Positions 1 through 19,739 of a stretch of 47,271 nucleotides of DNA are shown piece by piece. A program made the position numbers and the translations under genes. Positions within the stretch are counted from its first letter, which is position 1, and the number at the start of each line of letters is the position of its first letter. Source of the DNA: an uncultured Verrucomicrobia subdivision 3 bacterium (GTDB lineage Bacteria > Verrucomicrobiota > Verrucomicrobiia > Limisphaerales > UBA11358); NCBI GenBank assembly GCA_903875465.1, contig CAIQWB010000040.1, forward strand, positions 1 through 47,271, given 5' to 3'. The notes beneath the pieces are model-generated. The model made no database searches. It saw only the letters and a list, made by a program, of their open reading frames with translations, and had not been told where the DNA came from.

Positions 1-1
1 C

Positions 2-2293: not shown

Positions 2294-3787
2294 AACGCCT
2301 CCAGCGCGGATCTCGCGGGCACGCTCGTCAAGCGCGATGCCAGCGGTAGTTTCACGAGCCGCAGCCTTGCCCTCGATGGCAATTTAACCCTGCCCCCGAC
2401 GACGGCCACTTCGGGTATTGTCTATGTTGGCAGCAATTTGCTGCTGCATTCTTACGGCAACCAGAATTTCTATGCCGGCAAAGCCGCCGGTAATCTGACC
2501 ATGACCGGATCGCAAAACGTGGGCCTCGGCTTCGGTGCGCTCAGCAATAACGTGGGTGGTTCCGGCAATGTCGCCGCTGGCAATCAGGCCCTGTTCAACA
2601 ACACGTCCGGAGCCAACAACGTGGCCAATGGCGACTTGGCGCTGTTCGCCAACACGGCGGGGATCGCCAACGTGGCCAATGGTTACGCCGCGCTTTACTA
2701 CAATACGAATGGGGTGGACAACACCGCCAATGGCGTGGAATCGCTTTATAATAATTCCTCCGGCAATAACAACACGGCCAATGGGGCCCAGGCCCTGTTG
2801 GGTAACTTGACCGGCAATAACAACACCGCTAGTGGCGTTCAGGCTATGCTGGGCAATTTGACGGGTAATAACGACACCGCCAATGGCTATCAGGCACTGC
2901 TCTCCAATACCAATGGCAACAACAACACGGCGGATGGTTTCCAGGCGCTTTACTATAACACCGCCGGCAGCTACAACCTGGCCGCCGGCGCGCGCGCGCT
3001 GTACAATAACACTACAGGTAATAACAACACTGCCGTCGGCTACTTTGCGCTTTATAACAATACCAATGGCATGAACCTCACGGCAAATGGCTATCTATCC
3101 CTATACAATAACACCACTGGCGGCAATAATACCGCCAGCGGCAATCAAGCCCTGTTCTCCAACTCCTCCGGCAGTAATAATACCGCCAGTGGCGCCCAGG
3201 CGCTGTACGCGAACTCCACGGGCACCAACAATACCGCCCTTGGTGTAAATGCGCTGAATTTCAACACCACCGGCAACAATAACATTGCCATTGGGTATCA
3301 AGCCGGCCGGAATAACAATGCCACCGCCAGCGGCAACATCGAGATTGGCAATCCGGGACTGGCCACCGATACCAACGTCGTCCGCATCGGCGACACCCAG
3401 ACGGCGACTTATCTGATGGGCACCGTCTATGCCAACAGCGTGGCCTTGACCAGCGACCACAATGCCAAGGAGCATTTCTCGAGCATCAATCCCCAGGACG
3501 TGCTTGCCCGGGTCGCCACCCTGCCTGTGACCAAATGGAATTACAAACGGGACAACCAGGGTGTGCAGCACATCGGCCCCATGGCCCAGGATTTTCAAGC
3601 CGCCTTTGGTTTGGACGGCACCGATGACAAACACATCGCGGTGGTGGATGAAAGCGGCGTGGCACTGGCTGCCATCCAAGGCTTGAACCAGAAACTGGAA
3701 GCAGCCAACCAGGCCAAGGAAGCGGAAATCACCGCCTTGCAGGAGCGACTGGACAAACTGGAGAAATTGCTCCAATCCCAGAAATAA
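2..3787 (+). CDS. Giant repeat-rich surface/fibre protein with C-terminal S74 chaperone (5' end outside window)
   Basis: The frame is open from base 2 with no stop until 3787 (1261 residues). The repeats continue to the left edge, so the true start lies upstream; the GTG at 413 is only internal. Order: eighteen 43-residue modules (residues 1-764), a linker, fifteen 17-residue repeats (838-1092) resembling the head repeats of YadA-like adhesins, then a Peptidase_S74 (intramolecular chaperone of endosialidase) domain from about 1150, ending in a heptad-like coiled coil. Ser1151 and Lys1156 (pattern S-D-x-x-x-K) match the self-cleavage dyad spacing known in that family. In phage tail spikes this domain helps trimerise beta-helical fibres and then cuts itself off, so a trimeric extracellular fibre is inferred. 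It is not clearly phage-derived: no tail or capsid genes are nearby. No terminator is obvious downstream. Confidence 0.85.
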   Translation, partial: GTIVLRDTLGGINGGAINATGIISGNGSGITGLSASQITTGTFALAQLPGNLLTNTETGVTLGGTFFGNGAGLTNLNTGATTNPLPGTIVLRDTLGGINGGAINATGIISGNGSGITGLSASQITNGTFSLNQLPSGVVTNTATNVILSGTFSGNGSGLTGLTASQITNGMFSLNQMPGNLLTNSETGVTLSGAFSGNGAGLTNLNTGANTNPLPNTIVLRDTLGGINVGALKATGVISGNGSGLTGLTASQITNGTFSLAQLPGNLLTNTETGVTLSGAFSGNGAGLTNLNTGANTNALPSTIVLRDTLGGINVGAIKATGIISGNGSGLTGLNTSQINNGTFSLAQLPGNLLTNTETGVTLSGAFLGDGSGLTNLNTGANTNPLPSTIVLRDSLGGINAGAINATGVISGNGSGLTGLSTAQITNGIFSLTQLPSGVVTNTETAVTLSGAFSGDGSGLTNLNTGANTNPLPSTIVLRDTLGGINVGALKATGIISGNGSGLTGLSASQITNGIFSLTQLPGSVVTNTATNVILSGTFSGNGAGLTNLNTGATTNPLPGTIVLRDSLGGINVGAINATGIISGNGSGLTGLNAAQITNGTFALTQLPGSVVTNTATNVTLSGTFSGNGSGLTGLTASQITNGTFSLAQIPGSVITNTETGVTLSGTFSGNGGGLTNLNTGANTNPLPSTIVLRDTLGGINVGALKATGIISGNGSGLTGLSASQITNGTLSLAQLPGGIITNTETGVTLSGAFSGDGSGLTNLNASSADLAGTLVKRDASGSFTSRSLALDGNLTLPPTTATSGIVYVGSNLLLHSYGNQNFYAGKAAGNLTMTGSQNVGLGFGALSNNVGGSGNVAAGNQALFNNTSGANNVANGDLALFANTAGIANVANGYAALYYNTNGVDNTANGVESLYNNSSGNNNTANGAQALLGNLTGNNNTASGVQAMLGNLTGNNDTANGYQALLSNTNGNNNTADGFQALYYNTAGSYNLAAGARALYNNTTGNNNTAVGYFALYNNTNGMNLTANGYLSLYNNTTGGNNTASGNQALFSNSSGSNNTASGAQALYANSTGTNNTALGVNALNFNTTGNNNIAIGYQAGRNNNATASGNIEIGNPGLATDTNVVRIGDTQTATYLMGTVYANSVALTSDHNAKEHFSSINPQDVLARVATLPVTKWNYKRDNQGVQHIGPMAQDFQAAFGLDGTDDKHIAVVDESGVALAAIQGLNQKLEAANQAKEAEITALQERLDKLEKLLQSQK
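2513..3277 (+). repeat. Fifteen tandem 51-nt (17-residue) repeats in the fibre gene
   Basis: The period is exactly 17 residues with consensus N-N-T-A-x-G-x-x-A-L-x-x-N-T-x-G-x. A partial sixteenth copy follows at 3278. One Asn/Thr pair and one Gly per turn suit a stacked beta-roll like adhesin heads (inference). Confidence 0.93.
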
Positions 3788-3970
3788 CCCCAAGGGCACC
3801 GGGGCGGGTGTTACCCAAGGGCGGCTTCACGGTCATACGCGTGGGCGGCATCCGCTTCCGGGTCAGTTTGCCATCGGCATCGGCAAGTACAAAATGTGAC
3901 CAACCCGCCGCACAGGTGGGGCCGCTTCGGGAATTGCCAACCCCATTGGCCCAGCACTATAATTGCAAGC

Positions 3971-4018
3971 ATGTTTTCGCACGTTGTTATTTTATTATCT
4001 TTGGTGACAAAGAAATAA
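3971..4018 (+). pseudogene. Severed 5' end of the Dabb-domain gene
   Basis: Read from the ATG at 3971, the first seven residues are M-F-S-H-V-V-I, the usual start of a Dabb (stress-responsive alpha/beta barrel) protein. The match to the complete Dabb gene at 13721 (F-S-H-I-V-I-F-W) runs up to base 3993; after that the frame enters element DNA and stops at 4018. Joining this piece to 13777 would give M-F-S-H-V-V-I-F-W-T-D-P. This is therefore the original start of the target gene, cut off by integration of the element. Confidence 0.8.
3984..4010. other. Left attachment junction (attL-like)
   Basis: TTGTTATTTT at 3984-3993 is repeated exactly at 13773-13782. GGTGACAA at 4003-4010 is the inverse of TTGTCACC at 13752-13759. 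Each motif lies 15 nt inside the element from the GT at 3986-3987 (13775-13776 on the right). That symmetry is what two phage-type half-sites of a large serine integrase would leave. Calling GT the crossover dinucleotide is inference. Confidence 0.75.
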
Positions 4019-4055
4019 ACAACGCCGTTTGCAGGGTCAAAATTTGCATATTGGG

Positions 4056-4664
4056 TTAATTATCAGCCACTTGCTTCTGCGAATTTACAATTTTGCACAC
4101 GCTGGCAATCGGGATGTTCAATTGGCGTCCAATTTCACGCAATCCAAGCCCCTGCTGCTTCAAGGCCAGAACCTCATCCCGACGGCTGCTCAAGGTAGAT
4201 GGACGGCCAAGGCGAACACCACGAGCACGGGCGGCATTCAATCCGGCGTTCACCCGGTCCTTGATCAGGTTGCGCTCAAATTCACAGACGGCCTTGAGCA
4301 CGTCCAGTTGGAGCTTGCTGGCAGGATTGTTGCCCGATGTATCGATGCCCTGTGAACTGCAAATCAATGGCACCCCAAGGTTGCTCATTTCATCCACCAG
4401 CAAGCACAAGTGGGTCAGGCTGCGGCCAATGCGGTCTAGCTTGAAGGCCACAACTCGTTCCACCTTGCCGCTGCGCATATCCTTTACCATGCGGTCAAGT
4501 GCGGGACGGGTCGCTTTGGCACCGGAAACCTTGTCTGAATAGATTTCCAAATTGGCCCAACCTCGCATCTGGCAGTATTTCTCAACTTCAAGGAGTTGAG
4601 AATCCGTCGATTGCTTACCGTTGGCGGTTGAAACTCGGGCATAGATAGCTGTCTTGCTGCTCAT
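4056..4664 (-). CDS. Small serine recombinase (resolvase/invertase family)
   Basis: A 202-residue protein, the usual size for resolvases and invertases. The N-terminal resolvase domain has the catalytic Ser12 in Y-A-R-V-S and the arginine motif K-L-D-R-I-G-R-S (residues 75-82). A long E helix follows (about 125-150), then a C-terminal helix-turn-helix (about 164-194) for site recognition. It cuts and rejoins two DNA sites through a 5'-phosphoserine link, typically to resolve dimers or invert a segment. It is the outermost gene at the left end of the element. An exact 11-bp inverted repeat overlaps its start codon and may be its site or an operator. It has no zinc-ribbon region, so it differs in class from the integrase at the other end. 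Confidence 0.93.
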   Translation of the reverse strand: MSSKTAIYARVSTANGKQSTDSQLLEVEKYCQMRGWANLEIYSDKVSGAKATRPALDRMVKDMRSGKVERVVAFKLDRIGRSLTHLCLLVDEMSNLGVPLICSSQGIDTSGNNPASKLQLDVLKAVCEFERNLIKDRVNAGLNAARARGVRLGRPSTLSSRRDEVLALKQQGLGLREIGRQLNIPIASVCKIVNSQKQVADN

Positions 4665-4687
4665 AAAACAAATGTATTATGAGCAGC
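4656..4687. repeat. Perfect 11-bp inverted repeat over the recombinase start
   Basis: GCTGCTCATAA (4656-4666) and TTATGAGCAGC (4677-4687) are perfect inverted copies with a 10-nt spacer. The recombinase ATG (4664-4662, minus strand) lies in the left arm. It could be an autoregulatory operator or part of the recombinase crossover site. Confidence 0.8.
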
Positions 4688-4881
4688 GAAACAAAGCAAG
4701 CAAAACCTCAATAAATCGAGGTATTTGATCACGCTTTCAAGGGGGAGGTTTAATGAACACCGGTTCAGGCCGGTTTTAAGGCCTGTGTGGATACAAGTAG
4801 GCCAAAATGGTTAATCCAAGAGACAGCATCGAGACGACGATTGCGGCGATGGCGATTCTGCGGGTGGAGATTCCGCTTCGC

Positions 4882-5762
4882 CTAGTCCATTCGTGTTCTG
4901 CCAGCAAAGGTCTTGGCAATCTGCTCATCCAGTTCCACCCGGTCGGTCACCACCACAAATTTCCAATCTCCAATCAACTTGCGCAGCACCTTTTGAGCGA
5001 AGAATACCATGGAGAAGCTCTTGCCACTGCCTTGGGTTTGCCAGAATACCCCGGCACGACCATGCCCCATTTTGCGAGCCTTTTGCATGGACGCAATGGC
5101 ATTGTTCACGCCCAAGAATTGATGGTTTTGCCCGATTATTTTGACCAGTCCCGCCTTATGTTCGGAGAACAAGGTGAAGTTTTCCACCAAATCCAGCAGC
5201 CGGTTTTTATCGCAAGTACCCCGAATGATTACCTCCAAGGACACCCGGCGTGGTTCGTTCTCCTGCTCAATGCGTTTCCACTCAAAAAAACGTTCCCAAT
5301 CTGCCGTGAGTGACCCCACCCGGCTATCCGTGCCGTTGGAAGCAATCAGCAGGGCGTTGAAAACGAACAGTTGGGAGATGTCGCTTTTGTAGCATTTCAG
5401 GTTGTCATCGAAAGCCGCACGGGCTGGAACTCCCGGCTTTTTCAGTTCAATGACCACCAACGGCAAACCATTGACGAAGCAAACGAGGTCAGGCCGACGG
5501 GTATATAATGCCCCCGTGATGCTGAGTTGGCTGACAAGGAGAAAATCATTGTTGGCCGGATTTTCCCAATCAATCACCCGCAGCCGTTCAGTCTTTTGAC
5601 CGCCGTTAATTTTGTCCGGCACTGAAACCTTGATGCCATCCTTTATCAGCCGATAAATCTCACGGTTGGCTGACGCAAGGCTCATGGCCCCCCGGTCACG
5701 AGTCAATTCATCAACAGCGGCATCAAGGCATCACTTGGCAGAGATTGATTCAACTTCACCAT
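4882..5762 (-). pseudogene. hsdR: Remnant of hsdR, type I restriction endonuclease subunit
   Basis: The encoded segment matches the HsdR N-terminal region: the R-D-R-G-A-M-S block, the nuclease motif P-D...V-V-I-E-L-K-K, and Walker A Q-G-S-G-K-S, followed by V-V-V-T-D-R-V-E-L-D. It then stops after about 275 residues, where complete HsdR has roughly 1000, so the rest of the helicase is missing. The 5' part is also damaged. M-V-K-L-N-Q-S-L-P-S-D-A (from 5762) is in another frame, and adding one C at about 5727-5728 restores a continuous L-P-S-D-A-L-D-A-A-V-D-E-L. No hsdM or hsdS lies nearby. It cannot encode a working restriction enzyme and is probably a decayed cargo gene. Confidence 0.88.
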
Positions 5763-5764
5763 GG

Positions 5765-5797
5765 CAGCCCAGGGCGGGACCAGCCCCGCCCTGGCTG
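5765..5797. repeat. GC-rich stem-loop between hsdR remnant and LamG gene
   Basis: CAGCC(c)AGGGCGGG and CCCGCCCTGGCTG pair over 13 bp with one bulged C and a short loop. There is no T-tract, so an intrinsic terminator is unlikely. It marks the 5' break of the hsdR remnant and may be a REP-like insertion. Confidence 0.6.
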
Positions 5798-5906
5798 CGC
5801 CACGCTTAATGCCAAATTGGGGCAAATGGACCTATGTCTCCCTGACAGCAGAAAACCCCGAACCACCAGAGCAGTGATGCGGGGTTGAGTGTTGCGCATT
5901 TTTACG

Positions 5907-7412
5907 CTATTGCCCTGGCACCACCTGATAAAATTTCTGTGGGCTGTTCGGATTGTGAACGTCACTGCTGTAGTCGCTCCAAATCTGAATGGGTGACGCA
6001 AGCGTAATGTTGGTCACGGTTTGCCATGAATTCGTATTGCTCAAGTCTGTTGTGGCTTGAATGTTGTAGTTGTAGCCAACGGTGCCTTGAATGATGACGC
6101 CAGCGAACAAGCCAAGCGACACGTTGGCAGGATTCACCACCACTGAATATGGTGCGTTGGTCACGCCACCAAGACTGCTGCTAACGACCACGTTGTATTG
6201 ACCAGCGCTGGCAAACTGAATGGCCCCCAGAGGCAGCATTGCGTTTGTGGCACCATCCAGAGCCACACCGTTAAAATACCACTGATAGGCAAGATTGCCA
6301 CTGCCCCATGCTCCCACGGTCAAGGTGTTGGTTTGACCCCAGTAGGTGTCCACACCGACAAATGGCCGGTTCAGGTATGGGTACATGAACAGGTTTGCCA
6401 CACTGCTGGTGATGCTGCCGTAGGAATTGGTGATAGCCACAGTGTATTGACCAACGTTTACCTGTTTGGCCACGACGATGTTTAAAGTGCTGTTGGTGGC
6501 GTTAAGCAAGTTGGTGCCGTTAAACTGCCACTGGTAGGCCATTGGCAGGTTGCCGGTAGCTGCCACGTTGAATGTGGCATTGGAATTTGCGTAAGCAATG
6601 ACGTCCGATGGTTGATTGGTGATGGAGGGGGGTGTTGTTGGGTTTGATTCCAAGGCATACAATGCGGCCACGTCGTCGCCGTTCAAGGCTCGGCTGTAGA
6701 TTCGGATGTCGGTTAAACATCCATTATACGGTGTCTCCGCTGAGCCGTACCAACCGGTAAAACCATTATTGAAATCTGGCGTGTTACCAATATTGAAAGG
6801 CAAATTATCGCCCTGTGACCAATCAAATGCGTTTGTGTAGACCATTTGGCCGTTCAAATAGCAAGTAAACACCTCATTTGTTAATGTCACCACAATATGT
6901 TGCCAAATCCCTGCTGTTGGATTCAATATCACATTTCCGCCACCTCCAGTCCAATAAATCAAGGCATTTGTATAGCCCGGTGCAGACGATGCTCCGGGTG
7001 CTGTTGGCTCAGTAGCAATGCCTAATTCGCCAAAACTTGCATAATAATTTTGTTCACGACCAACAATTGGAGATATACTAAAAGATTGCCCTCCTAGATT
7101 TGGTGGAAATGCGTTTATGTTCATCCAAAAACTATATGTAATTGGCGAATATGGTGAATTATTTAATGTCGGAATCGCTATGCTGCTATTTGTACCATTA
7201 AAACAGGCGGCGCTATTACTCACGCCAAGCATATTGGCAGTATAAATAATCCCAGTTGCCGTGCCATTATTCCCATTGCCGCTGGCGTCGTTGGCATTTC
7301 CATTAAATGGGAAATAAGCAACCAGCCCATTGGTGATAAATGATTGTGCTTGTGTGGTTAGTGTCGCTGCAATAATCGCAACGACCCCGATGATGAATTT
7401 GAGCGACTTCAT
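5907..7412 (-). CDS. Secreted LamG plus Ig-like domain protein
   Basis: 501 residues with a clear Sec signal peptide (K-S-L-K then a hydrophobic run, cleavage near A-Q-A-Q-S, about residue 23). Residues 24-250 form a LamG/concanavalin-like fold opening with L-V-A-Y-F-P-F-N-G-N-A-N-D-A-S-G. Two Ig-like domains follow (about 255-343 and 345-430), each with the Y-Q-W-x-F-N-G core. The C-terminal 70 residues are the Y-N-I-Q-A-T-T-D-L module frequent in secreted Verrucomicrobia proteins. LamG and Ig folds bind glycans or proteins; no catalytic residues are recognisable. It lies inside the integrated element and is probably cargo that alters the cell surface (inference). It shows no truncation. Confidence 0.85.
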   Translation of the reverse strand: MKSLKFIIGVVAIIAATLTTQAQSFITNGLVAYFPFNGNANDASGNGNNGTATGIIYTANMLGVSNSAACFNGTNSSIAIPTLNNSPYSPITYSFWMNINAFPPNLGGQSFSISPIVGREQNYYASFGELGIATEPTAPGASSAPGYTNALIYWTGGGGNVILNPTAGIWQHIVVTLTNEVFTCYLNGQMVYTNAFDWSQGDNLPFNIGNTPDFNNGFTGWYGSAETPYNGCLTDIRIYSRALNGDDVAALYALESNPTTPPSITNQPSDVIAYANSNATFNVAATGNLPMAYQWQFNGTNLLNATNSTLNIVVAKQVNVGQYTVAITNSYGSITSSVANLFMYPYLNRPFVGVDTYWGQTNTLTVGAWGSGNLAYQWYFNGVALDGATNAMLPLGAIQFASAGQYNVVVSSSLGGVTNAPYSVVVNPANVSLGLFAGVIIQGTVGYNYNIQATTDLSNTNSWQTVTNITLASPIQIWSDYSSDVHNPNSPQKFYQVVPGQ

Positions 7413-7420
7413 GGATATAT

Positions 7421-7426
7421 ATTATA
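7421..7426 (-). promoter_or_regulatory. Candidate -10 box of the LamG/Ig gene
   Basis: TATAAT on the minus strand ends 8 nt before the ATG at 7412. No good -35 hexamer stands at normal distance. If used, transcription would begin almost at the start codon, giving a leaderless message. Confidence 0.35.
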
Positions 7427-7478
7427 GCCCATAACCTTTACAAAAAGGCTTTTTCCCGTCAAGCAATAAAGGCACATC

Positions 7479-7501
7479 TGTTCCTAGAACAGCCGTTCCT
7501 A
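7479..7501. promoter_or_regulatory. Candidate operator upstream of the XRE regulator
   Basis: TGTTC-cta-GAACA (7479-7491) is a perfect 5-bp inverted repeat with a 3-nt spacer. Its half GTTCCTA (7480-7486) recurs directly at 7495-7501. The pair ends 19 nt before the XRE start and also lies upstream of the divergent LamG/Ig gene, a normal position for autoregulation by a small Xre-type repressor. Binding is inferred. Confidence 0.5.
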
Positions 7502-7520
7502 TGATTGGCAAAATGAGTGG

Positions 7521-7757
7521 ATGCCGAAAAAAGACTTTGCCGGATGCTTCGCCGAAGTCGTTCGTGACCGGCGCAAGCATCAAAAACTGACGCAGGAATC
7601 GTTGGCAGAAAAAGCTAACATTTCGTGGAAAATGGTGTCCTTGATTGAACGCTGCGAACGGACTCCAAGCATTGCCCTAGCAGAAAAAATCGCAAGTGGC
7701 CTTTCAACTCCACTCTGGCGACTTGTGAAAACCGCAGAAGATATGCGGAAAAAGTGA
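7521..7757 (+). CDS. XRE-family helix-turn-helix regulator
   Basis: 78 residues that are almost wholly one HTH_3 domain (about 12-66): R-D-R-R-K-H-Q-K-L-T-Q-E-S-L-A, turn, then I-S-W-K-M-V-S-L-I-E-R recognition helix. Such small single-domain proteins act as dimeric repressors or as controller proteins of restriction-modification and phage-like modules. It is divergent from the LamG/Ig gene, with a palindromic candidate operator 30 nt upstream, and it is the only plus-strand gene inside the element. Its stop abuts the stop of the next gene, which converges on it. No Shine-Dalgarno of note is present. It probably controls element genes; its target is unknown. Confidence 0.9.
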   Translation: MPKKDFAGCFAEVVRDRRKHQKLTQESLAEKANISWKMVSLIERCERTPSIALAEKIASGLSTPLWRLVKTAEDMRKK

Positions 7758-7943
7758 TTAACGCACAAACCGCAGCAGTTGATTGCCCTTCACCGACTGA
7801 TTTTTGCCAATGTCCTGAGTCCTCCCGTTTCGGTAGGTGGCCACGGTTTTACCAGCGAATTTTGTGACGTAGCCCTGGGTAGCTGTGGTTTGGACTGTGG
7901 CTAGAATCTTGCCCTTGGAATCCCTGATATATTCGGTGCTCAT
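7758..7943 (-). CDS. Small conserved protein with R-D-S-x-G-K repeats
   Basis: I place the start at the ATG at 7943 (61 residues), 13 nt after the stop of the upstream gene; a longer frame from 8033 would overlap that gene. The pattern I-R-D-S-K-G-K-I-L-A-T, then G-K-T-V-A-T-Y-R-N-G-R-T, then G-N-Q-L-L-R-F resembles small bacterial and phage proteins made of short beta repeats of the form R-D-x-x-G-R-x-L/I-G. Their function is not known. It probably shares a transcript with the gene at 7957-8286. Confidence 0.6.
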   Translation of the reverse strand: MSTEYIRDSKGKILATVQTTATQGYVTKFAGKTVATYRNGRTQDIGKNQSVKGNQLLRFVR

Positions 7944-7956
7944 GAATTCGTTTGGA

Positions 7957-8286
7957 TTAACCGTTGATTGGGCTTGGCAGTTCAATGGGGGATTCGCTCC
8001 AGAATGCCGTAGGGTCTTCTGTGGCGTCATCATTGTCCCAGCTCAACTCAAACCGGACATCCCCCTCACAATAATCCAAGTGTAATTCTTTGAAATCGAG
8101 TCCGTGGTCTTTTTTGAAATTCTGCCTCGCACTGCGGATTTTTTCAGCTTCCTCTGCGGAATAGGAGTCCAACTCATAATCCGTGACATCGTAAACACGA
8201 ACGACGATGGGACTACCATTGGTGCACTCTTTGTCAACGTAGAGGTGCCAACCTTCATTAACGGGCTTGCGATTCGTCCAATACAT
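7957..8286 (-). CDS. Hypothetical 109-residue acidic protein
   Basis: I do not recognise the family. It begins M-Y-W-T-N-R-K-P and is rich in Asp, Glu and Trp, with a mixed alpha/beta look: V-V-R-V-Y-D-V-T-D-Y-E-L-D strands, then a Lys/Arg helix, then W-D-N-D-D-A. It has no signal peptide or membrane segment, so it is probably cytoplasmic. It lies on the minus strand directly upstream of the small repeat protein at 7758-7943. The ORF has no competing frame of better quality. Confidence 0.55.
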   Translation of the reverse strand: MYWTNRKPVNEGWHLYVDKECTNGSPIVVRVYDVTDYELDSYSAEEAEKIRSARQNFKKDHGLDFKELHLDYCEGDVRFELSWDNDDATEDPTAFWSESPIELPSPING

Positions 8287-8388
8287 AGATCAATAGTACA
8301 CTATACAACGGATGCCGTCAACCATACGATTGATTAAAATGCCAAATTCATGGGCGAATTGCGATATGTCCCCTGATTCCATTGTGAA

Positions 8389-8862
8389 TTATAGCGAAAT
8401 CAAAACCAAGCTTTTATCCCCGGTGAACTCCAATTCACCATTATTAATTCGGGCATCGTAAATTTTGAATTTAACTGCCCTCAATTCCCCAAGTGCCTTG
8501 GAAATACGTTCCATCTCGTCATCATTGAACTGGCCAAGGCGAACCCGGTGATGGCTGAGTTTCGCCCGGCGCATGACAAGGAATAGAAAAAAGGAAAATG
8601 GGCTGGTCAACCGGCATTTAAAAACCACGGGCATTTCCAACGGAACGATGTGGAACCAAAACTTGTCGAACAACTCGCCGCAGTTGGTGCAATGTTCCAT
8701 GATGGAAGCATCATCAAAATTCTGTTGGGGCGATTCTCCCCAGATTTCGTGCATTTTATCGAGGTTTTTCTGTGAACTGAAATTATCAAGCACATGAGCC
8801 ACCCGGCTAGTTATTGCGTTTCCGGTTATGATCGTTGGATTATTTGCGGTTGTCGTTGTCAT
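8389..8862 (-). CDS. 157-residue protein with a DnaB-helicase-like segment
   Basis: Residues about 104-141 (H-H-R-V-R-L-G-Q-F-N-D-D-E-M-E-R-I-S then K-I-Y-D-A) resemble the DnaB RecA-fold segment R-x-R-x-G-Q-x-x-D-x-x-x-x-R-I-S...Y-I-D-D. P-L-E-M-P at 74-78 recalls the S-L-E-M of DnaB. There is no Walker A or B motif and the length is a third of DnaB, so it cannot be a complete helicase. A C-x-x-C pair lies at 58-61. It could be a degraded replicative helicase or an unrelated element protein. It is immediately downstream of the polymerase-like gene on the same strand. Confidence 0.55.
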   Translation of the reverse strand: MTTTTANNPTIITGNAITSRVAHVLDNFSSQKNLDKMHEIWGESPQQNFDDASIMEHCTNCGELFDKFWFHIVPLEMPVVFKCRLTSPFSFFLFLVMRRAKLSHHRVRLGQFNDDEMERISKALGELRAVKFKIYDARINNGELEFTGDKSLVLISL

Positions 8863-8905
8863 GAAAATAAATAGGCAAGAGCCGGTTGAATCGTGTTTAT
8901 TTATT

Positions 8906-10291
8906 TCACCCGGGACCGATGGTTTGAATCGTTGGCCGTGAAGTTTTCAACGTTGGCTTGAACCCAATTGCCGTCGTCAAATGGTGCTCCATGATTTTGG
9001 TGACCATCGGAATATCCGCCGCAAAACACCCGATGGCATCATGAATGGTGTAGCAATAAATCCCGTGCATCATGAGTTCATTGGCAATGCCATCAATGAA
9101 AATGCCACTTTCAATCTGCTGCAATTTCAACCCAAATTGGCTATGTATCTTCTCCTTGCCCTTGGCGTTGCTCTTCAAAACCTTTGAAATGCCCGTGTCC
9201 CTGATCGTTTTGATTCGGTGAATTTCGGCATAGAGCATTGGGAAATGCTGCTGATATGCCGCCATGATTGCCTTGGCTACAACCTTGCTCACACCCTTGG
9301 GCGGTTGGTTCACATTGCGGCAGTTCAACGCCCCCTTGATGACGCATTGCTTCATGTCATCGGCTGATATGCCTGATCCGGTCAAATCCACGAAACGCTG
9401 ATAAAAATTACCGGACGACCACAAGGCATAATAACGGCTGGCCTCATCTTGAATGGCGGCAGCATCACCACCCGCAATTTGTTGATACAACTTGAGCAGT
9501 AAAAAGGGCTGGCTCGCATGTTGGTCAACCTCCCATACCTCTTGGCCATCAACCCGCAGGAACGCCCTCAAATCCTTGTGAAGGCTGATGACAGGGGTGA
9601 ACAATCTGCCCACACGGTTTTCCCGGGTGAAAAACCACCCACACCGTGTGATACCATCCACAACCTTGGTATCGGCATTAATGGCCTCAATGAGCATCTC
9701 GGCATGAGCCTTTGAACTGTCGTCTGAGCCATGCTTGAATTGCCGGTGATTAACATAATCCATCACGCTGGCATCAAACCGTAATCGGCAAAGGTTTCCA
9801 TATAGCCATTTTTCCAAGTCGGTATGAACCGCAATAATATTGCTCAAGCCCGTGGCAAATGCCTTGGCTTGAGTGTTGGTCAATTGGATTGCAAGAGGAC
9901 AGGGCACGACCTTTTGACGGCGGTATGCCCTGGTAAAGCAATAGCTGCGGGAAAACTTTGCATTCAGAAATTTGGGATTCACCTCGATGACGTCCAAGTT
10001 TTCCAAGGCATCAAGCAAAACTTTCAATTCTGGATTCCGACAGCCACATGCCTTTTCCAATTTGCGGGTGTTCAAGTTGACCCAGTGCTTATGATGGTCC
10101 CGATTTCGACTTTGAATCAACTCGCCCCACTTGATTCGGGAAATGATTATGAAGAGCTTGATGAGGCGAAATTTCACACCGGAAAGCTTACGTTGCTTCA
10201 ATAAAAATGCCTTTTCCTTGGAATTTAGGTTGGCACAATTTGAAACCAAATCGGACAACCCTGCTAATCCAGATGGAACCTTAAATTTCAT
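8906..10291 (-). CDS. Putative family-A-like polymerase of the mobile element
   Basis: 461 residues. The C-terminal half has a polymerase-palm pattern: G-R-L-F-T then L-R-A-F-L-R-V-D-G, then E-V-D-Q-H-A-S-Q-P (Asp256, motif A-like); a basic stretch around K314 (motif B-like); and Y-T-I-H-D-A-I-G (His417-Asp418, motif C-like, as H-D in family A polymerases). The basic N-terminal 120 residues may bind DNA. Standard PolA is about 900 residues with a 3'-5' nuclease domain; this is much shorter and has none. I infer a replication or repair protein of the element. The motif assignment is by eye, so an unrelated fold remains possible. Confidence 0.6.
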   Translation of the reverse strand: MKFKVPSGLAGLSDLVSNCANLNSKEKAFLLKQRKLSGVKFRLIKLFIIISRIKWGELIQSRNRDHHKHWVNLNTRKLEKACGCRNPELKVLLDALENLDVIEVNPKFLNAKFSRSYCFTRAYRRQKVVPCPLAIQLTNTQAKAFATGLSNIIAVHTDLEKWLYGNLCRLRFDASVMDYVNHRQFKHGSDDSSKAHAEMLIEAINADTKVVDGITRCGWFFTRENRVGRLFTPVISLHKDLRAFLRVDGQEVWEVDQHASQPFLLLKLYQQIAGGDAAAIQDEASRYYALWSSGNFYQRFVDLTGSGISADDMKQCVIKGALNCRNVNQPPKGVSKVVAKAIMAAYQQHFPMLYAEIHRIKTIRDTGISKVLKSNAKGKEKIHSQFGLKLQQIESGIFIDGIANELMMHGIYCYTIHDAIGCFAADIPMVTKIMEHHLTTAIGFKPTLKTSRPTIQTIGPG

Positions 10292-10454
10292 CAGTTATAA
10301 TAAAGTAATAAACAACATATTCTTGCAGATGTGATGAAAAAATATGGACCAACCACCCGATCCGTCATGCTGGAAATGCGTCTCCAATGCATGTTGGGGA
10401 TCAAGCACTTGGTCACATACATAAAATTTTAATTTGTGGTAATTTGCATAAACT

Positions 10455-11060
10455 TCAATTTTGGGCCAAAGCACTGGTGCAGAAAAACTGTCCAACAGAC
10501 CTATTCTCCCCCTCCGTTTTGGTAATTGAGATGCCATCAGAAACTTGCTCCATTCCAAGGTATTCAGCATTTGGCGTCATCCAATCTCTGGCTAAATCCT
10601 TGCCCACTCCTTGACGCAAAAGTTCATCGTAATTGGTATATTCGTGACGGTAGTTGTTTCGCATAACAATTTTTAAGAATTTATCAAACTCAATTTCTCC
10701 CATGCTGTATAGACGATACGTCTTTGAATTGTTTCGCACAGCGTAACCAATCGCCTCTTCAACTGAAAGTCGCTCATCTAGCTTGAAGCCGCCTGAATAC
10801 GCCATCGCCACTAATTCATCAATTTGGGCGTCTTTCTCCCGCTCAAGTTTCAAAATGCGCTTTTCTCTGCGATTTTTCCCCTTGGAAATGGTTGTATCAA
10901 TAGCCTCTAACACTTTTGTCTTATCTTTTTCGTCTATTAGGTAACCGATTATTTTCGGGCCATATTTTGTCCACTTCGTATCCGGTTCAATTGGCAATTT
11001 TAGTTTTTTTAGAATGCTCGGTAATCTGTATCTACGATTCGTTTTAATGCAATTTTTCAT
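10455..11060 (-). CDS. Hypothetical 201-residue charged protein
   Basis: No family recognised. The N-terminal third is very basic (K-T-N-R-R-Y-R-L-P, K-K-L-K-L-P) with a likely helical Lys/Arg/Glu stretch at about 60-85 (R-R-E-K-R-I-L-K-L-E-R-E-K-D). The rest holds a mixed region with F-D-K-F-L-K-I-V-M-R-N-N-Y-R. There is no signal peptide. It is upstream of the polymerase-like gene on the same strand, in the most AT-rich part of the element, and may bind nucleic acid (inference from charge only). Confidence 0.55.
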   Translation of the reverse strand: MKNCIKTNRRYRLPSILKKLKLPIEPDTKWTKYGPKIIGYLIDEKDKTKVLEAIDTTISKGKNRREKRILKLEREKDAQIDELVAMAYSGGFKLDERLSVEEAIGYAVRNNSKTYRLYSMGEIEFDKFLKIVMRNNYRHEYTNYDELLRQGVGKDLARDWMTPNAEYLGMEQVSDGISITKTEGENRSVGQFFCTSALAQN

Positions 11061-11476
11061 ATAATATTCGTGTCAAGGCAATGGACTTCCCCACAAGGGC
11101 ACAATGCACCTGTGTTGGTTATTTGGGAGGTTTTGCCTCAATGAGTCTTGCCAGCCATTTCCAGCACCAACCGGAACGGCGAGCAATCTCAAACGGGAAT
11201 CATTATATAGATGAGCAACTTGAAAGTCAAGAATGAAGTCAAGCCTAAATAATGATATTTCGCAAAAAATCTTACATATATGTGATTTCCCGTAAATACG
11301 TATTTATCAACTGGCGATGAATTTTATGCCCCGTGTCCAGATCGTGAATCAGAGCTCGAAATGGGAAAAGTTTCAAAACGAGCCGGGTAATTGCGTCATT
11401 ACGATTTTCCCCATGAAAAACCAGCCCCAATTATTGAACGTATCAGGCCGGGCAAGGGGGTGGCAAAAAGCTCATA
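11061..11476. other. AT-rich non-coding region with two palindromes
   Basis: No convincing gene. It holds ACATATATGT (11274-11283) and, 9 nt on, the perfect 14-bp palindrome TAAATACGTATTTA (11293-11306). It is the longest non-coding stretch of the element and lies upstream of the minus-strand gene at 10455-11060, so a promoter/operator or replication origin is possible. Confidence 0.5.
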
Positions 11477-11800
11477 TCAAGAAGCAGTATGCCGCCATGG
11501 GGGTATGGTCCAAATAGCCTCCCCCTCACTGACCGTGCCAATGATCAGCCCCAGGTATTGTTCCATTTCTTGATGCGACGTGATGACGTAACATGTTGGG
11601 CAGACGCCACAAAAATGCGGCTGGTAGCCACCCTCTGGATTGCGATTGAGGGGTTGAATCGTCCATGCGCATTGCTGGGGCTCAATGTCCCCCAGCAGCA
11701 GGTTCTGGTATTGCTTGGCCTCCTGTGTGCTTGTGAGGAAATAGTTTAATCCCTCGTATCGCTTTACGCAGGGCTGGAATTGTTTTGTCGTTGTCGTCAT
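11477..11800 (-). CDS. Hypothetical 107-residue protein with an internal duplication
   Basis: The start is placed at the ATG at 11800 (M-T-T-T-T-K-Q-F-Q-P-C); a longer frame from 11887 adds an implausible hydrophobic leader. Two similar halves are visible: L-T-S-T-Q-E-A-K-Q-Y-Q-N-L-L-L-G...A-W-T-I-Q-P and I-T-S-H-Q-E-M-E-Q-Y-L-G-L-I-I-G...I-W-T-I-P-P, about 48 residues apart. Between them sits F-C-G-V-C-P-T-C, a possible metal site. The function is unknown. The M-T-T-T-T start recurs in the protein at 8389-8862. Confidence 0.55.
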   Translation of the reverse strand: MTTTTKQFQPCVKRYEGLNYFLTSTQEAKQYQNLLLGDIEPQQCAWTIQPLNRNPEGGYQPHFCGVCPTCYVITSHQEMEQYLGLIIGTVSEGEAIWTIPPWRHTAS

Positions 11801-12059
11801 AATTTTATCGTGGCAATCGGTTGTGTCGCCATATATAAATATTTCCAGTTCCAAGAAATCCCCCAACAAACAAACAGGCCAGAGCATTTAATTTTAATTT
11901 CAGCGCAAACGTTGCCGTATGGGTCCATTCACCCTGAAATTGGCATTATCGTTTTACACTGGGTTGGACTCATGACAAAACCGCACACCGTGAAAATATA
12001 TCAACGTTCAAACGGTGGCCGGTGATATGTATTGAGGTCCGTTCTTCGTTGTCGTGAAA

Positions 12060-12099
12060 AAAAGCCGCAGCGGTCGTTAAAAAAACTGCTGCGGCTTTT
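12060..12099 (-). terminator. Intrinsic terminator of the large serine integrase
   Basis: On the minus strand GCCGCAGC (12095-12088) pairs with GCTGCGGC (12071-12064) across a 16-nt loop and is followed by a run of T. It begins 4 nt after the integrase stop. The A-run and T-run on both sides would let it act in both directions. Confidence 0.9.
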
Positions 12100-12102
12100 C
12101 GA

Positions 12103-13719
12103 TTAAGCGGTCAATTCAGCCATCGTCGAAGGCTTTTTATTAAGGCACCACAATGTTCGCAAACCACCATTTTCCTCGTCTGGGTCCCAATGGCTATTTG
12201 CCACCCACCATTCTTTGCCTTTTCTGTCCCAAGCAATCAAATCCTGACCCTCGTATCCCAAGTTTTTTTTCCAAGCAATCCTCATTTGGCAAAGTTTTGG
12301 GTTAACGACGATTTCATCAATCGCATCCTTTAAAACGGATGAGATTTTTGCACGTCCCAACGGGGTTTTGATGTCATCTTGAATGGTTTCCCCCATTTCC
12401 TCAATTTTGCCGGGTATATTTGTCATGCTGGATTCTTCCAGCACAGCTTTTTGCAGGTCTGCTTGCAATTTTTCCATCTGGGATTCCAATGCAGACATTC
12501 TTTGGGCAATGATTTTTGGCGGAACATCATCGGAAGCCTCAATGATCGCCATCATTTTCGTGAGCTGCTTTTTCACCCCGTCAATCTGCAAGCGTAACGC
12601 ACCAGTGCTCGACGCAGATTGTGGCCGCAATTTCGACAGGAAACGCTTATCGCAAAAAACCCATTCCGTGAAACATTCTTCCAAGATATTGGTTGCCACA
12701 GTTTTATATGAGCACATTTTGTGCTTGTGCGCATTGCCGCACACCAAATAGGTGTACCCGTGGCGGGACCGCACTAGCTGGATTAAGCTGGCTCCACAAT
12801 CGGAGCATTTTATTATGCCAGCAAAAAGGTTGTTGCGATAAGGCGTTTTTGGATTTTTATAACCTGTTCCCTTGTAAGTGTTTCGCTGCTTTAATTTGGC
12901 TTGGACTTGGTAAAACAAGTCGTGTTCAATGATTTGTGGGAAATAATCTAAAATTTTATCCCCATCCTCAATCCGTTTGCCATTGATGTTGGTTTTTGGC
13001 TGGAAATGACCAAGGACTTGTTCTCCGGTCAAGGTGTTGTGAATTATGGCTTTGTTCCAATCTTTTCCATGGAAAGACGCAACCCTTTGTTCGTTAAAAA
13101 TTCGGATGATGGATATGATGCCCAGTCCTTCACTTGAGAGTTTAAAAATGCGCTGGACGGTCTCAACGTGCTTTGGAATCGGCACAATCGTGTCATTTTC
13201 CACCGTTAGCCATCCGGGCAGTTTTTTCGTGTAAATTTTGGTTTTGGAATCGATCCGCTTTTGCTTCCAAGCTGCCTTCCCCCGGTAAATTCGTTTTTGC
13301 CGCTCTTCATTCGCCAGAGTCGTTTTCAACGAGAGAATCAGGAATGACTGCGAACTTTGCCAATTGGCTTTTGTCAGCGTTTGGCCGTCCCGCAGAGAAA
13401 CGATAGTGATACCGCATTCAAGGATTTTTGAAATTAAATTCAAGGAGTCCAAGGGCAACATTCGTGACAGCCTGTCCACATCCTCGATAAGCAGGTATCT
13501 GGGGACCATCCCTTGGTCCAAATCTTCAAGCAGTTCTTTTAAGGCTTTTCTGCCGTCCGCACCCTTCCCCCCTGAGATTCCAAGGTCTTTATAGGTTTTG
13601 ACCAGCTTGGCACCATGCTCCTTGCTCCACTGCTCCGCAGATTGTGTCTGGCGTTGTTCGGATTGACCATCCGCCTGTTCTGCGGTTGAATACCTCAAAT
13701 AGAGTATCGCATTATCCAT
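12103..13719 (-). CDS. Large serine recombinase (integrase) of the element
   Basis: 538 residues from the ATG at 13719; a 13-residue longer frame upstream lacks any domain support. It has an N-terminal resolvase domain with catalytic Ser11 (L-Y-L-R-Y-S) and D-R-L-S-R (82-86), a Recombinase domain (about 165-275), a zinc ribbon with Cys305, Cys308, Cys327 and Cys336, then a long coiled coil (about 370-440) and a tail. This is the standard phage/ICE integrase architecture, which joins short attP and attB sites through a central dinucleotide. It reads inward from the right junction 56 nt away, as expected. It is probably the enzyme that inserted this element into the Dabb gene. Excision would need a directionality factor, not identified here. 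Confidence 0.95.
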   Translation of the reverse strand: MDNAILYLRYSTAEQADGQSEQRQTQSAEQWSKEHGAKLVKTYKDLGISGGKGADGRKALKELLEDLDQGMVPRYLLIEDVDRLSRMLPLDSLNLISKILECGITIVSLRDGQTLTKANWQSSQSFLILSLKTTLANEERQKRIYRGKAAWKQKRIDSKTKIYTKKLPGWLTVENDTIVPIPKHVETVQRIFKLSSEGLGIISIIRIFNEQRVASFHGKDWNKAIIHNTLTGEQVLGHFQPKTNINGKRIEDGDKILDYFPQIIEHDLFYQVQAKLKQRNTYKGTGYKNPKTPYRNNLFAGIIKCSDCGASLIQLVRSRHGYTYLVCGNAHKHKMCSYKTVATNILEECFTEWVFCDKRFLSKLRPQSASSTGALRLQIDGVKKQLTKMMAIIEASDDVPPKIIAQRMSALESQMEKLQADLQKAVLEESSMTNIPGKIEEMGETIQDDIKTPLGRAKISSVLKDAIDEIVVNPKLCQMRIAWKKNLGYEGQDLIAWDRKGKEWWVANSHWDPDEENGGLRTLWCLNKKPSTMAELTA

Positions 13720-13720
13720 T

Positions 13721-14059
13721 ATGAAAGAACAAATACAGGATTCCGGAAAAGTTGTCACCTATTTCTCACACATTGTTATTTTTTGGACAGACCCGGCCCA
13801 GCCCAACGCCATCGCTAAATTGGTGGCCGGGGCAAACAAATACCTCAAGAACATCCCCGGCGTGATTCAATTTCATGTGGGCCAAATGTCCCCCAGTCCC
13901 CGGGCGGTGGTGGACCAAAGTTACCAGGTGGCCTTGAACCTGATTTTCCCCAGCAAACAGGCTGAGCAGGAATACCAGGTGCATCCTCAACACATTGAAT
14001 TCGTCGAGAAAGTCTTTAAGCCCACCTGCAAAAAAGTCCAGATTTTCGATTTCGAGTAA
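13721..14059 (+). CDS. Dabb (stress-responsive alpha/beta barrel) protein, 5' end rebuilt by the element
   Basis: 112 residues. From F-S-H-I-V-I-F-W (about residue 15) onward it is a Dabb ferredoxin-like barrel ending V-F-K-P-T-C-K-K-V-Q-I-F-D-F-E. Dabb proteins usually start at that histidine-containing strand, so the first 14 residues (M-K-E-Q-I-Q-D...) are an addition encoded by element DNA. The normal start M-F-S-H-V-V-I remains at 3971. Integration thus replaced the first codons and the promoter but left an in-frame product. The function of bacterial Dabb proteins is poorly known; they dimerise, and some relatives are enzymes. The start is one base from the divergent integrase start, so expression now depends on element sequence. 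Confidence 0.85.
   Translation: MKEQIQDSGKVVTYFSHIVIFWTDPAQPNAIAKLVAGANKYLKNIPGVIQFHVGQMSPSPRAVVDQSYQVALNLIFPSKQAEQEYQVHPQHIEFVEKVFKPTCKKVQIFDFE
13752..13782. other. Right attachment junction (attR-like)
   Basis: TTGTCACC (13752-13759) is the inverse of the left GGTGACAA. TTGTTATTTT (13773-13782) is the copy shared with the left end. The proposed crossover GT is 13775-13776. The junction lies inside codons of the Dabb gene and keeps its frame. Confidence 0.75.
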
Positions 14060-14075
14060 GCGCCGGCCAGCCGCC

Positions 14076-14094
14076 AGCCACGGTTGGCTTTTTT
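14076..14094 (+). terminator. Intrinsic terminator after the Dabb gene
   Basis: AGCCA-cggt-TGGCT followed by a T-run, 17 nt after the Dabb stop. The stem is only 5 bp, so strength is uncertain. Confidence 0.6.
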
Positions 14095-14115
14095 AGGCAA
14101 ACGCTCTGCCGCAGC

Positions 14116-14868
14116 TCAGGCGAAGCGCAGCCGGGCTTCCAGTTCGCGCAAACTGACGGTGACATTCACTTGCTTGCCGTCGGTAAGCGCGGCGCAATAT
14201 TCCCCGGAACCTTTGGCGTTCAACGCGGCAATCATCCGGAGGTTCACGATGACGGAACGGTTTAAACGGACAAAATCCTTTGGTGCCAGCTCCTGTTCGA
14301 GCGTCGCCAGGGTTTCCCGGATAATATGGCGCTCGGCACCGGCGCTGACCACGACATAATTTCCCGCCGACTCAATCCAGTCGATCTGGCCGGCCTTGAT
14401 GAACACAACCCGCTCACCCGCCCTGGCCATCAGGTGCGAGAGCGTCAGCCGGGGCGGCGTCCCGGCGGCGGGCGCGGGTTTCTCCCCCGGAGTTTCGCGC
14501 ATCGCCGCGAGCTGGTCACGCACGCGCTCGAGCGCCCGCGCGAGGCGTTCCGGCCGGACTGGCTTGAGTAAATAATCCACCGCGCGCGTGTCAAACGCCT
14601 CCACGGCAAACCCATCATGCGCGGTTACGAACACGACGAGTGGCAAAGGCTCGTCGGCGAGGAGGTGGGCGAGCTTTAGGCCAGTCAGGCGGGGCATTTG
14701 CACATCCAAGACCAGCAAATGCACCCCCCCGTTGCTGATTAATTGTTTCGCTTCCGCGCCGGAAGCCGCCTCGCTAATGATTTCAATATCACCATGTTCC
14801 CCCAGCAAATCCCGCAGGCGCGCCCGCGCCAGCGGTTCGTCATCCACGAGAATAGTTTTGATTTTCAT
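14116..14868 (-). CDS. LytTR-family response regulator
   Basis: 250 residues. The receiver domain (about 1-120) has the acidic pocket D9-D10, the phosphoacceptor Asp55 in L-V-L-D-V-Q-M-P, and the conserved L-L-K-P lysine near 102. A linker rich in Pro and Ala leads to a LytTR DNA-binding domain (about 150-248), which includes I-D-W-I-E-S-A-G-N-Y-V and F-V-R-L-N-R-S-V-I-V-N. LytTR regulators bind short direct repeats upstream of targets. The gene follows its histidine kinase with a 12-nt gap in one operon. The efflux operon starting at 16439 on the other strand is the nearest likely target. Confidence 0.93.
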   Translation of the reverse strand: MKIKTILVDDEPLARARLRDLLGEHGDIEIISEAASGAEAKQLISNGGVHLLVLDVQMPRLTGLKLAHLLADEPLPLVVFVTAHDGFAVEAFDTRAVDYLLKPVRPERLARALERVRDQLAAMRETPGEKPAPAAGTPPRLTLSHLMARAGERVVFIKAGQIDWIESAGNYVVVSAGAERHIIRETLATLEQELAPKDFVRLNRSVIVNLRMIAALNAKGSGEYCAALTDGKQVNVTVSLRELEARLRFA

Positions 14869-14880
14869 GCCAGGGTGCGG

Positions 14881-16074: not shown

Positions 16075-16438
16075 CGGAAAAATTATCCACCAAAACCGGT
16101 GGTCTGGCAAATACTAGTAGGGCGATGATGCCAAAATAGAGCGCAAATTAAATTTTCCGTTATTCCGCCAGTTCCCGGTAAAATTTCAGACGCCTTTCAT
16201 CCCGCGAATGAACCGGTTCATCCCAAATCCCGGCGGCTCGTCACTATCCGCGTGAAGCCTGCCCGGCGGAGTGCCACGATACTGCCATGAGTATATGGTT
16301 CATGATGATTATTGCCTCCGGCCCGGCTGGGGCCGTGCGCAGGTTCGCAACGACCCGGGCGGCGGCACTCTTCGCCCCACTTAAACTCATTCCATGACCA
16401 TGCCTCATGTGCGGCCCTTCGGGCCCGGGGCAACCAAA
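16075..16438. other. Divergent intergenic region, sensor pair versus efflux operon
   Basis: 364 bp with no gene I can support. It must hold the promoters of both divergent operons and, if the pair autoregulates or controls the pump, the LytTR boxes. I cannot pick out a convincing -35/-10 pair or a repeated LytTR box by eye. Confidence 0.5.
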
Positions 16439-17812: not shown

Positions 17813-17821
17813 AAATTAACC

Positions 17822-19737: not shown

Positions 19738-19739
19738 CC

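Follow-up and report, generated by a model that had tools for sequence, protein, structure and literature searches.

The window, a 47,271-nt stretch of DNA from an uncultured Verrucomicrobia subdivision 3 bacterium, contains a gene for a Dabb protein (PF07876) that is split in its 5′ coding end by a 9,789-bp element. The two halves meet the element within codon 6, at putative crossover dinucleotides GT at positions 3986–3987 (attL) and 13775–13776 (attR) of the forward strand. At the left end, the codons ATG TTT TCG CAC GTT GTT ATT (3971–3991) open a stranded native start (3971–4018, forward strand), which reads M-F-S-H-V, continues into the element as V-I-L-L-S-L-V-T-K-K followed by a stop codon, and matches the native starts of relatives. 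A promoter-like site (TTGCCA-18-TATAAT, 11 of 12 consensus bases) lies 5′ of it at 3934–3963 on the same strand, and a promoter scan of the native-start region gave two sites against 0.3 expected from shuffles. At the right end, a start codon and matching N-terminal residues are supplied in frame by the element: the donated start (13721–13774, forward strand) begins with an ATG at 13721, from which a 14-residue leader, MKEQIQDSGKVVTY, precedes F-S-H-I, and the codons TTC TCA CAC ATT GTT ATT TTT TGG (13763–13786) lead into the remainder of the host gene (13775–14059, forward strand). The Pfam Dabb profile matches the remainder from position 10, and from position 2 when the donated residues are included. 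The earlier note had proposed that an element of about 9.8 kb separates a Dabb start at 3971–3991 from its remainder and that, after an ATG and a 14-residue leader of its own, the element repeats F-S-H-I in frame, and both proposals held. Its claim of a sequence shared by the two ends is true of the window, where TTGTTATTTT is present at both, but this 10-bp core is not shared by the whole family: the ends of the related element in genome G006 have little beyond GT in common.

A large serine recombinase (LSR) is encoded on the reverse strand next to the right end (12103–13758), with a likely ATG at 13719–13717. It contains Resolvase (PF00239), Recombinase (PF07508), and zinc ribbon (PF13408) domains in this order, all above the gathering scores. 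R22-Y23-S24 and C318, C321, C340, and C349 are invariant in the three members of the family; we take these to be the R-x-S motif with the catalytic serine and the four zinc-binding cysteines. The rest of the element carries genes for a small serine recombinase of 202 aa (PF00239; 4056–4664, reverse), which is cargo or accessory, a truncated N-terminal fragment of HsdR of type I restriction (4882–5706, reverse), a LamG/immunoglobulin-domain cargo protein (5907–7412, reverse), an HTH_3 regulator (7521–7757, forward), a 461-aa protein (8906–10291, reverse) with a weak match to phrog_4756, a family of unknown function, and a 201-aa protein (10455–11060, reverse) with a weak DUF2293 match below the gathering score. 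Of the 49 genomes searched, none of the 48 others contained a relative of the 461-aa protein. A PHROGs scan of nine element ORFs, which covered neither 5907–7412 nor the smaller ORFs, detected no phage structural genes; the matches were to recombinases, regulators, and unknown families, and four ORFs had no match. No relative of the LSR was found in a viral collection, and two matches to the attR pattern there look like chance, having no credible Dabb or LSR match (best E value, 0.065).

Joining the element ends gives a symmetric attP of the form TTGTCACC-15-GT-15-GGTGACAA, which in the window spans 48 bp and consists of an 8-bp perfect inverted motif placed 15 nt from the central GT on either side. 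The left arm, TTGTCACC (13752–13759, forward strand), doubles as leader codons and is identical in G006, G234, G079, and G117; the right arm, GGTGACAA, lies at 4003–4010 (forward strand), and AGTGACAA occupies the same 15-nt spacing in G006 and G003, which also have GT at the equivalent place. The attP of G006 has the spacing of the window with one mismatch. Its inner 6 bp are symmetric as well (CATATT-GT-AATATG), and part of the H-I codons could therefore reflect recognition by the recombinase. The 15-nt half-site spacing in the window and G006 is close to the zinc-domain motif positions, 16–24, in the consulted part of PMC3783163. By eye, attB showed no clear sign of the 5-bp motif shift described for the Listeria integrase.

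The earlier note predicted an empty site reading M-F-S-H-V-V-I-F-W-T-D-P, which is what the window's host halves give when joined by eye. The closest Dabb homologue, in G012 (90% identical), is uninterrupted and reads exactly so, and it aligns as one gene to window positions 3970–3993 (95.8%) and 13763–14059 (83%). Including this sister, native M-[FL]-S-H was found in 26 of the 35 readable Dabb starts of the genus, a count that omits G008 (contig edge) and G014 (weak paralogue). The possibility that 3788–14059 is a continuous conserved region was rejected, as relatives have both halves joined. In G006, fabD lies 6,641 nt before the crossover, as against 104–117 nt in 10 uninterrupted relatives, and the element there measures 6,542 bp; fabD was located at 475–1412 nt in four further native loci and was not seen in the fetched stretches of the others. 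The insertion pattern is more than chance, given the alignment of the G012 homologue as one gene and the identically arranged locus of G006, whose LSR is 65% identical. The genomes are drafts, two of the named ones metagenome-assembled. A variant native start in G256 was set aside.

Beyond what the earlier note had described, the event recurs and donated starts outlast the recombinase. Two other genomes, G006 and G234, carry a 63–65% identical LSR at the same site together with a rebuilt start, and a start of this kind with no intact LSR next to it is found in another seven. In six of the seven, an LSR stub adjoins the donated start (E values of 1e-63 to 5e-8 with a three-row profile); the same profile gave no value below 2 at any of 38 native starts. 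In the seventh, G003, the two junctions lie 70 bp apart: a stranded start with an arm motif spaced 15 nt from the crossover, then another start. As neither an LSR remnant nor a left arm motif could be recognised in G003, its case is made by the stranded start and the right arm. The ten cases need nine changes on a Dabb tree and thus look largely independent, on an alignment of only 94 columns, and with precise excision some of the gains could instead be losses. Well-supported native sisters were found for four of the ten firm cases (G000, the genome of the window, with G012; G234 with G232; G003 with G017; and G243 with G019). Both the stubs and these sisters argue against the idea that the leader-bearing Dabb is an old native form from which the element end was copied. 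That idea draws on eleven further leader-bearing starts without a significant LSR remnant (G002, G236, G048, G077, G230, and a consistent group of six genomes with MSTP[SA]SQ leaders followed by FSHV), which may have other origins and were not counted as cases; the remnant was borderline in G236 (0.013) and G048 (0.029). We consider this explanation improbable, but an old native leader-bearing form may have been the first source of the element's F-S-H codons.

In a search of 320 genomes of the order at 1e-60, five had an LSR match: three of the family (G000, G006, and G234) and two distant ones (G032 and G095). At 1e-70, only G000 matched among 387 genomes of the phylum; both searches missed short stubs. 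Restriction of the element to the genus was rejected, as three other families contain stubs, in four genomes altogether. The Dabb search of the order had a match in 232 of 313 genomes. Of the 24 loci outside the genus, 13 were chosen because the match to the native protein started after residue 1, so these loci are no random sample; such a late start was counted by hand in 17 of the 150 matches listed, four of the 17 within the genus.

The donated codons specify the native peptide with different DNA. Serine codons of the AGY type occur in six of the ten donated starts but in none of the 38 native ones, and the G006-type arm, TTC AGT CAT, differs from the commonest native codons, TTT TCA CAC, at five of nine bases, all silently (p = 6.5e-5). 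The window arm differs from the commonest native codons at only one of nine bases, so it is the other copies that carry the codon argument. Of the six stub-bearing copies, G079 and G117 preserve TTGTCACC intact; in the other four it is eroded, yet the F-S-H-[IV] codons are still in frame. An in-frame ATG is present in all 21 leader-bearing starts that were read out, a count in which Dabb genes lacking one might be overlooked. The silent differences, the AGY serines, the frame kept in eroded copies, and the in-frame ATGs speak against the view that the likeness of the element end to the gene start is attP/attB recognition sequence only, with the chimeric frame a by-product and Dabb inactivated. 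Recognition would explain why the window arms have most bases in common and why the G006 attP has symmetric inner bases, and the part of PMC3783163 consulted assumes that, beside the crossover, the recombinase domain binds attP and attB in the same way; even so, we regard recognition as the sole cause as very unlikely.

The earlier note also suggested that the interrupted gene is expressible under an element-borne promoter, which the sequence leaves plausible: a standard scan found no promoter for the donated start, and a candidate hexamer pair, TTGACC-17-TTGAAT (13663–13691, forward strand), lies antisense in the 5′ end of the LSR gene. The pair persists in six of the eight decayed rows examined, which include three that are not firm cases (G236, G048, and G002). 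As the comparison was anchored on TTGAAT, which is there in eight of eight by construction, the TTGACC columns alone are informative; they were kept in 6 to 7 of the eight rows versus an average of about 4.6 for the other left columns (by hand), and the 40 rows taken as native include two leader-bearing ones (G295 and G290). TTGAAT is absent 5′ of seven other leader-bearing starts, G003 among them. The element might instead act as a switch of the kind proposed for SpyCI at mutL, integration altering Dabb expression and excision restoring the native promoter. Integration does cut off the good promoter-like site of the host, and with no standard promoter at the new start, expression may drop, as measured for dusA in the consulted part of PMC8409611. 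However, copies with a broken or lost recombinase cannot switch, yet the donated start is kept in them, and a switch seems to us unlikely.

We therefore prefer start replacement, in which a site-specific LSR element replaces the promoter and N-terminus of its target and the replacement can outlive the element (probability about 0.88). The LSR would cross over at the GT of the conserved valine codon in F-S-H-[VI]-V, near the 5′ end of the conserved Dabb gene. Integration would strand the native promoter together with codons 1–5 at one end, in the window as a 15-codon peptide with a stop in the element, and join the rest of Dabb to the element end with its own ATG, a leader that varies from element to element, and F-S-H-[IV] codons. 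Judging from profile and structure alignments, the donated codons probably restore the strand that opens the Dabb fold; an alignment-free AlphaFold model of the chimera had low confidence (mean pLDDT of 68.1) and at most agrees with a strand at residues 10–23. The LSR gene probably starts 1–2 bp from the new Dabb start (1 bp between the likely ATGs in the window), so that the signals of each would lie within the coding region of the other. If transcribed and translated, the donated start would let carriers keep Dabb, presumably to the benefit of the host, and loss of the element's other end or of the recombinase would make the replacement permanent.

In our best reading, the element works like dusA islands and SXT in prfC, from which its serine recombinase, new target, and fossil starts set it apart. 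SXT/R391 is a large conjugative element with a tyrosine integrase. Its target, prfC (as cited in the part of PMC8409611 consulted), differs from Dabb. For dusA-associated islands, including IMEVchUSA3, a replacement beta strand and a new promoter have been proposed or shown; as here, they enter a conserved gene at its 5′ end, replace its start with element sequence, and share an integrase amid highly diverse cargo (PMC4482086 and PMC8409611, in part). They differ in having tyrosine integrases, dusA as the target, and measured expression, whereas the present element has a serine recombinase and a Dabb target, is known from sequence alone, and is thus no dusA-type island in the strict sense. The consulted parts of the two papers contain no decayed copies that left only a start. 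LSR elements with conserved gene targets have the same recombinase class and domain set, and many LSRs aim at a single gene family, but in the portions consulted these targets (e.g., mutT, traG, and hsdM) are called disrupted with no mention of a restored N-terminus (PMC10083194; serine-integrase ICEs, PMC4701971). The satellite SpyCI (as cited in PMC4701971, consulted in part) likewise inserts at the 5′ end of its target, but mutL is switched off when it is integrated, whereas the Dabb start is rebuilt. The main text of PMC10083194, supplements aside, does not contain the word Dabb, and in the limited literature examined Dabb is an unfamiliar target, as the earlier note had remarked.

Target-restoring islands are usually seen as reversible guests. 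At this one site a full series is found, from empty genes through three complete LSR genes with rebuilt starts and LSR stubs to a 70-bp scar, and retention of the donated start while the recombinase decays is natural evidence that the start works. The site also offers a clean system for how an att arm serves both recombinase and reading frame and, for a new family of serine integrases, a predicted attP/attB pair whose crossover is defined. We lean, with less assurance than for start replacement itself, towards the wider reading that one LSR family repeatedly and independently swapped the Dabb promoter and N-terminus across the order, that many lineages kept the new start permanently after decay, and that mobile elements would thus keep a core gene supplied with new promoters and N-termini. 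The start sites of conserved genes may be relics of mobile elements.

The 9,789-bp element lies between the GT dinucleotides at 3986–3987 and 13775–13776 and interrupts codon 6 of a Dabb (PF07876) gene, for whose protein the window genome has a single match at a threshold of E 0.001. As the earlier note had read it, the native start remains at the left end, where ATG TTT TCG CAC GTT GTT ATT is found at 3971–3991 (+), and the right junction is in frame, with TTC TCA CAC ATT GTT ATT TTT TGG from 13763 leading into the Dabb remainder to 14059. The frame is open from an element-borne ATG at 13721, giving the product MKEQIQDSGKVVTY-FSHIVIFWTDP. This chimera matches the Pfam Dabb profile from position 2 (62.1 bits) and the host remainder by itself only from position 10 (56.8 bits); alignments to solved homologous structures begin at the donated residues. 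The empty site that the note predicted, M-F-S-H-V-V-I-F-W-T-D-P, was found in the closest homologue (genome G012, 90% identical), where one uninterrupted gene aligns at its start with window 3970–3993 and over its body with 13763–14059. In a Dabb tree, G012 groups with the window gene as its sister with support of 100/95, and native sisters are likewise placed beside G234 (G232, 96/89), G003 (G017, 99/94), and G243 (G019, 96/83). Within the genus, 37 of 49 genomes gave a Dabb match. Of the 35 starts that could be read, 26 begin directly with M-[FL]-S-H; a contig-edge fragment (G008) and a weak paralogue (G014) were left out. A divergent fabD-like gene lies 104–117 nt before the crossover in 10 uninterrupted relatives, 475–1412 nt before it in four others, and 6,641 nt before it in G006.

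The 551-residue large serine recombinase (LSR) of the window (12103–13758, minus strand) comprises a catalytic, a recombinase, and a zinc-ribbon domain; its likely ATG and the rebuilt Dabb ATG, which lie on opposite strands, are 1 base apart. This gap is 2 bases in G006, which carries an LSR 65% identical to that of the window, a rebuilt Dabb start (MESNLSQVVTRFSHIVIFW), and a stranded ATG TTT TCA CAC ACC GT at the other end of the element, 6,542 bp from the rebuilt start. The LSR of G234 is 63% identical to that of the window and its leader nearly equals the G006 leader; this locus is at a contig end, and its left element end was not seen. Between window 1–20000 and the G006 stretch, the sole DNA match was 12515–14008, comprising the recombinase and the gene. 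The attachment sites are symmetric about the GT, reading TTGTCACC-15-GT-15-GGTGACAA in the window and TTGTCACC-15-GT-15-AGTGACAA in G006. The outer arm motif occupies positions 17–24, counting the crossover base as 1, close to the zinc-domain motif at positions 16–24 of a Listeria integrase (PMC3783163). The 10-mer TTGTTATTTT that the note had reported at both ends is present in the window, but the G006 ends have little beyond GT in common; the 10-mer is therefore longer than the family requires.

Decayed copies retain the donated start. A nucleotide profile of the LSR 5′ end plus attR, built from the three intact copies and applied to as much as 900 nt upstream of each of 59 Dabb genes, detected LSR stubs in G079 (1e-63), G117 (3e-27), G243 (5e-19), G042 (2e-15), G119 (4e-12), and G266 (5e-8); G236 (0.013) and G048 (0.029) were borderline, and G002 was not significant (1.1). 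The best native start gave 2 and the best reversed sequence 3.3. With the LSR portion of the profile alone, five stubs remained significant (E at most 1.3e-8), and the sixth, that of G266, gave a weaker 0.00095. When 12 leader-bearing draft genomes were re-searched with the three LSRs, matches at 1e-10 were obtained in G079, where the match is the stub itself, and in G042 and G002, where the LSR and Dabb are on different contigs; no match at this threshold was found in the other nine drafts. In G003, the stranded start ATG TTT TCA CAC GTC GT is followed by 15 nt and then AGTGACAA, and 70 bp separate its GT from that of a second start, MNQKAFSHIV; neither a recombinase remnant nor TTGTCACC was found between or at these starts. 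Six genomes (loci L113, L114, and L116–L119) bear the leader MSTP[SA]SQ ahead of F-S-H-V, and no trace of a recombinase was found there; the shared leader is either a scar that became fixed long ago or a native form in its own right. The Dabb leader ATG of G002 (L100:4646–5137) is ~43 bp past the stop of a same-strand sulfatase gene, and fabD was not seen alongside.

As judged from sequence comparison, the mimicry of the native start is at the codon level. The G006-type arm encodes F-S-H as TTC AGT CAT, compared with the commonest native TTT TCA CAC, and all five differences are silent; the chance of this among 9-mers with five differences is 6.5e-5, and that of a random 45% G+C arm reading F-S-H-[IV] is ~1.3e-5. 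The window arm differs from the commonest native codons at one of nine bases and is little informative alone. All 38 native starts have a TCN serine codon; an AGY codon is used in six of the 10 firm cases (the three with an intact LSR, the six with a stub, and G003); within the genus, AGY is found in six of nine leader-bearing starts, three of the nine not being firm. Of the six stub-bearing copies, G079 and G117 have TTGTCACC intact; in the other four it is eroded (CTGCCACC, CTGCCGCC, CGACCTCC, TTGACACG) with F-S-H-[IV] kept.

The Dabb tree comprised 59 proteins (38 native, 10 firm, and 11 leader-bearing without a remnant). The firm cases require nine changes, eight of them forced by well-supported branches, and are about as scattered as shuffled labels. 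The alignment is short (94 columns), rows from beyond the genus were picked in part for unusual starts, and a precise excision could be scored as a loss; the nine changes therefore indicate roughly how many insertions took place and do not prove it.

A promoter-like site, TTGCCA-18-TATAAT (3934–3963; 11 of 12 consensus bases), lies directly before the stranded native ATG, and a standard promoter scan gave none before the donated ATG in the window. Among 12 copies, intact or decayed, TTGAAT is located 31–38 nt upstream of the donated ATG in 11 and 59 nt upstream in G266, preceded by TTGACC at a spacing of 17 nt in 10 of the 12; TTGAAT is not present before seven other leader-bearing starts, including that of G003. 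These hexamers double as LSR codons, and the pair is kept in six of eight rows with a broken LSR gene. TTGACC-17-TTGAAT is, with modest confidence, the likely element promoter.

Defence-like cargo is often near the LSR, including an HsdR fragment in the window (4882–5706) and a DruA-like domain in G006 (L062:4187–7348); the reading frame beside the stub of G079 (L107:1–1043) is presumably HsdM-like. Both elements hold a second, small serine recombinase (window 4056–4664; L070:3256–3918, the latter recognized by eye). The 461-aa protein at 8906–10291 has no Pfam family, and a weak phrog_4756 match, and a search of 49 genomes gave no relative in the other 48; it contains short motifs that we take to be reminiscent of family-A DNA polymerase. 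Directly before the element, window 413–3787 encodes a long, repetitive protein with a C-terminal Peptidase_S74 (endosialidase chaperone) domain.

Islands inserted in dusA substitute its 5′ portion and may rebuild a beta strand (PMC4482086), and one such island was shown to provide a promoter, SXT being cited as doing likewise in prfC (PMC8409611). These islands use tyrosine integrases, whereas the window element has a large serine recombinase. Large serine recombinases often have gene targets in common (PMC10083194); streptococcal ICEs can change the upstream DNA with the N-terminus unaltered, and serine-integrase triplets are disruptive to their targets (PMC4701971). A limited literature search returned nothing relevant on Dabb with integrase or attB, or on remnant or replaced N-termini. 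In light of the dusA and SXT precedents and these searches, the principle of restoring the start of a target gene is therefore already known; what appears to be new within the literature searched is the use of a large serine recombinase, the Dabb target, the placing of the two start codons side by side, and donated starts that outlast the LSR.
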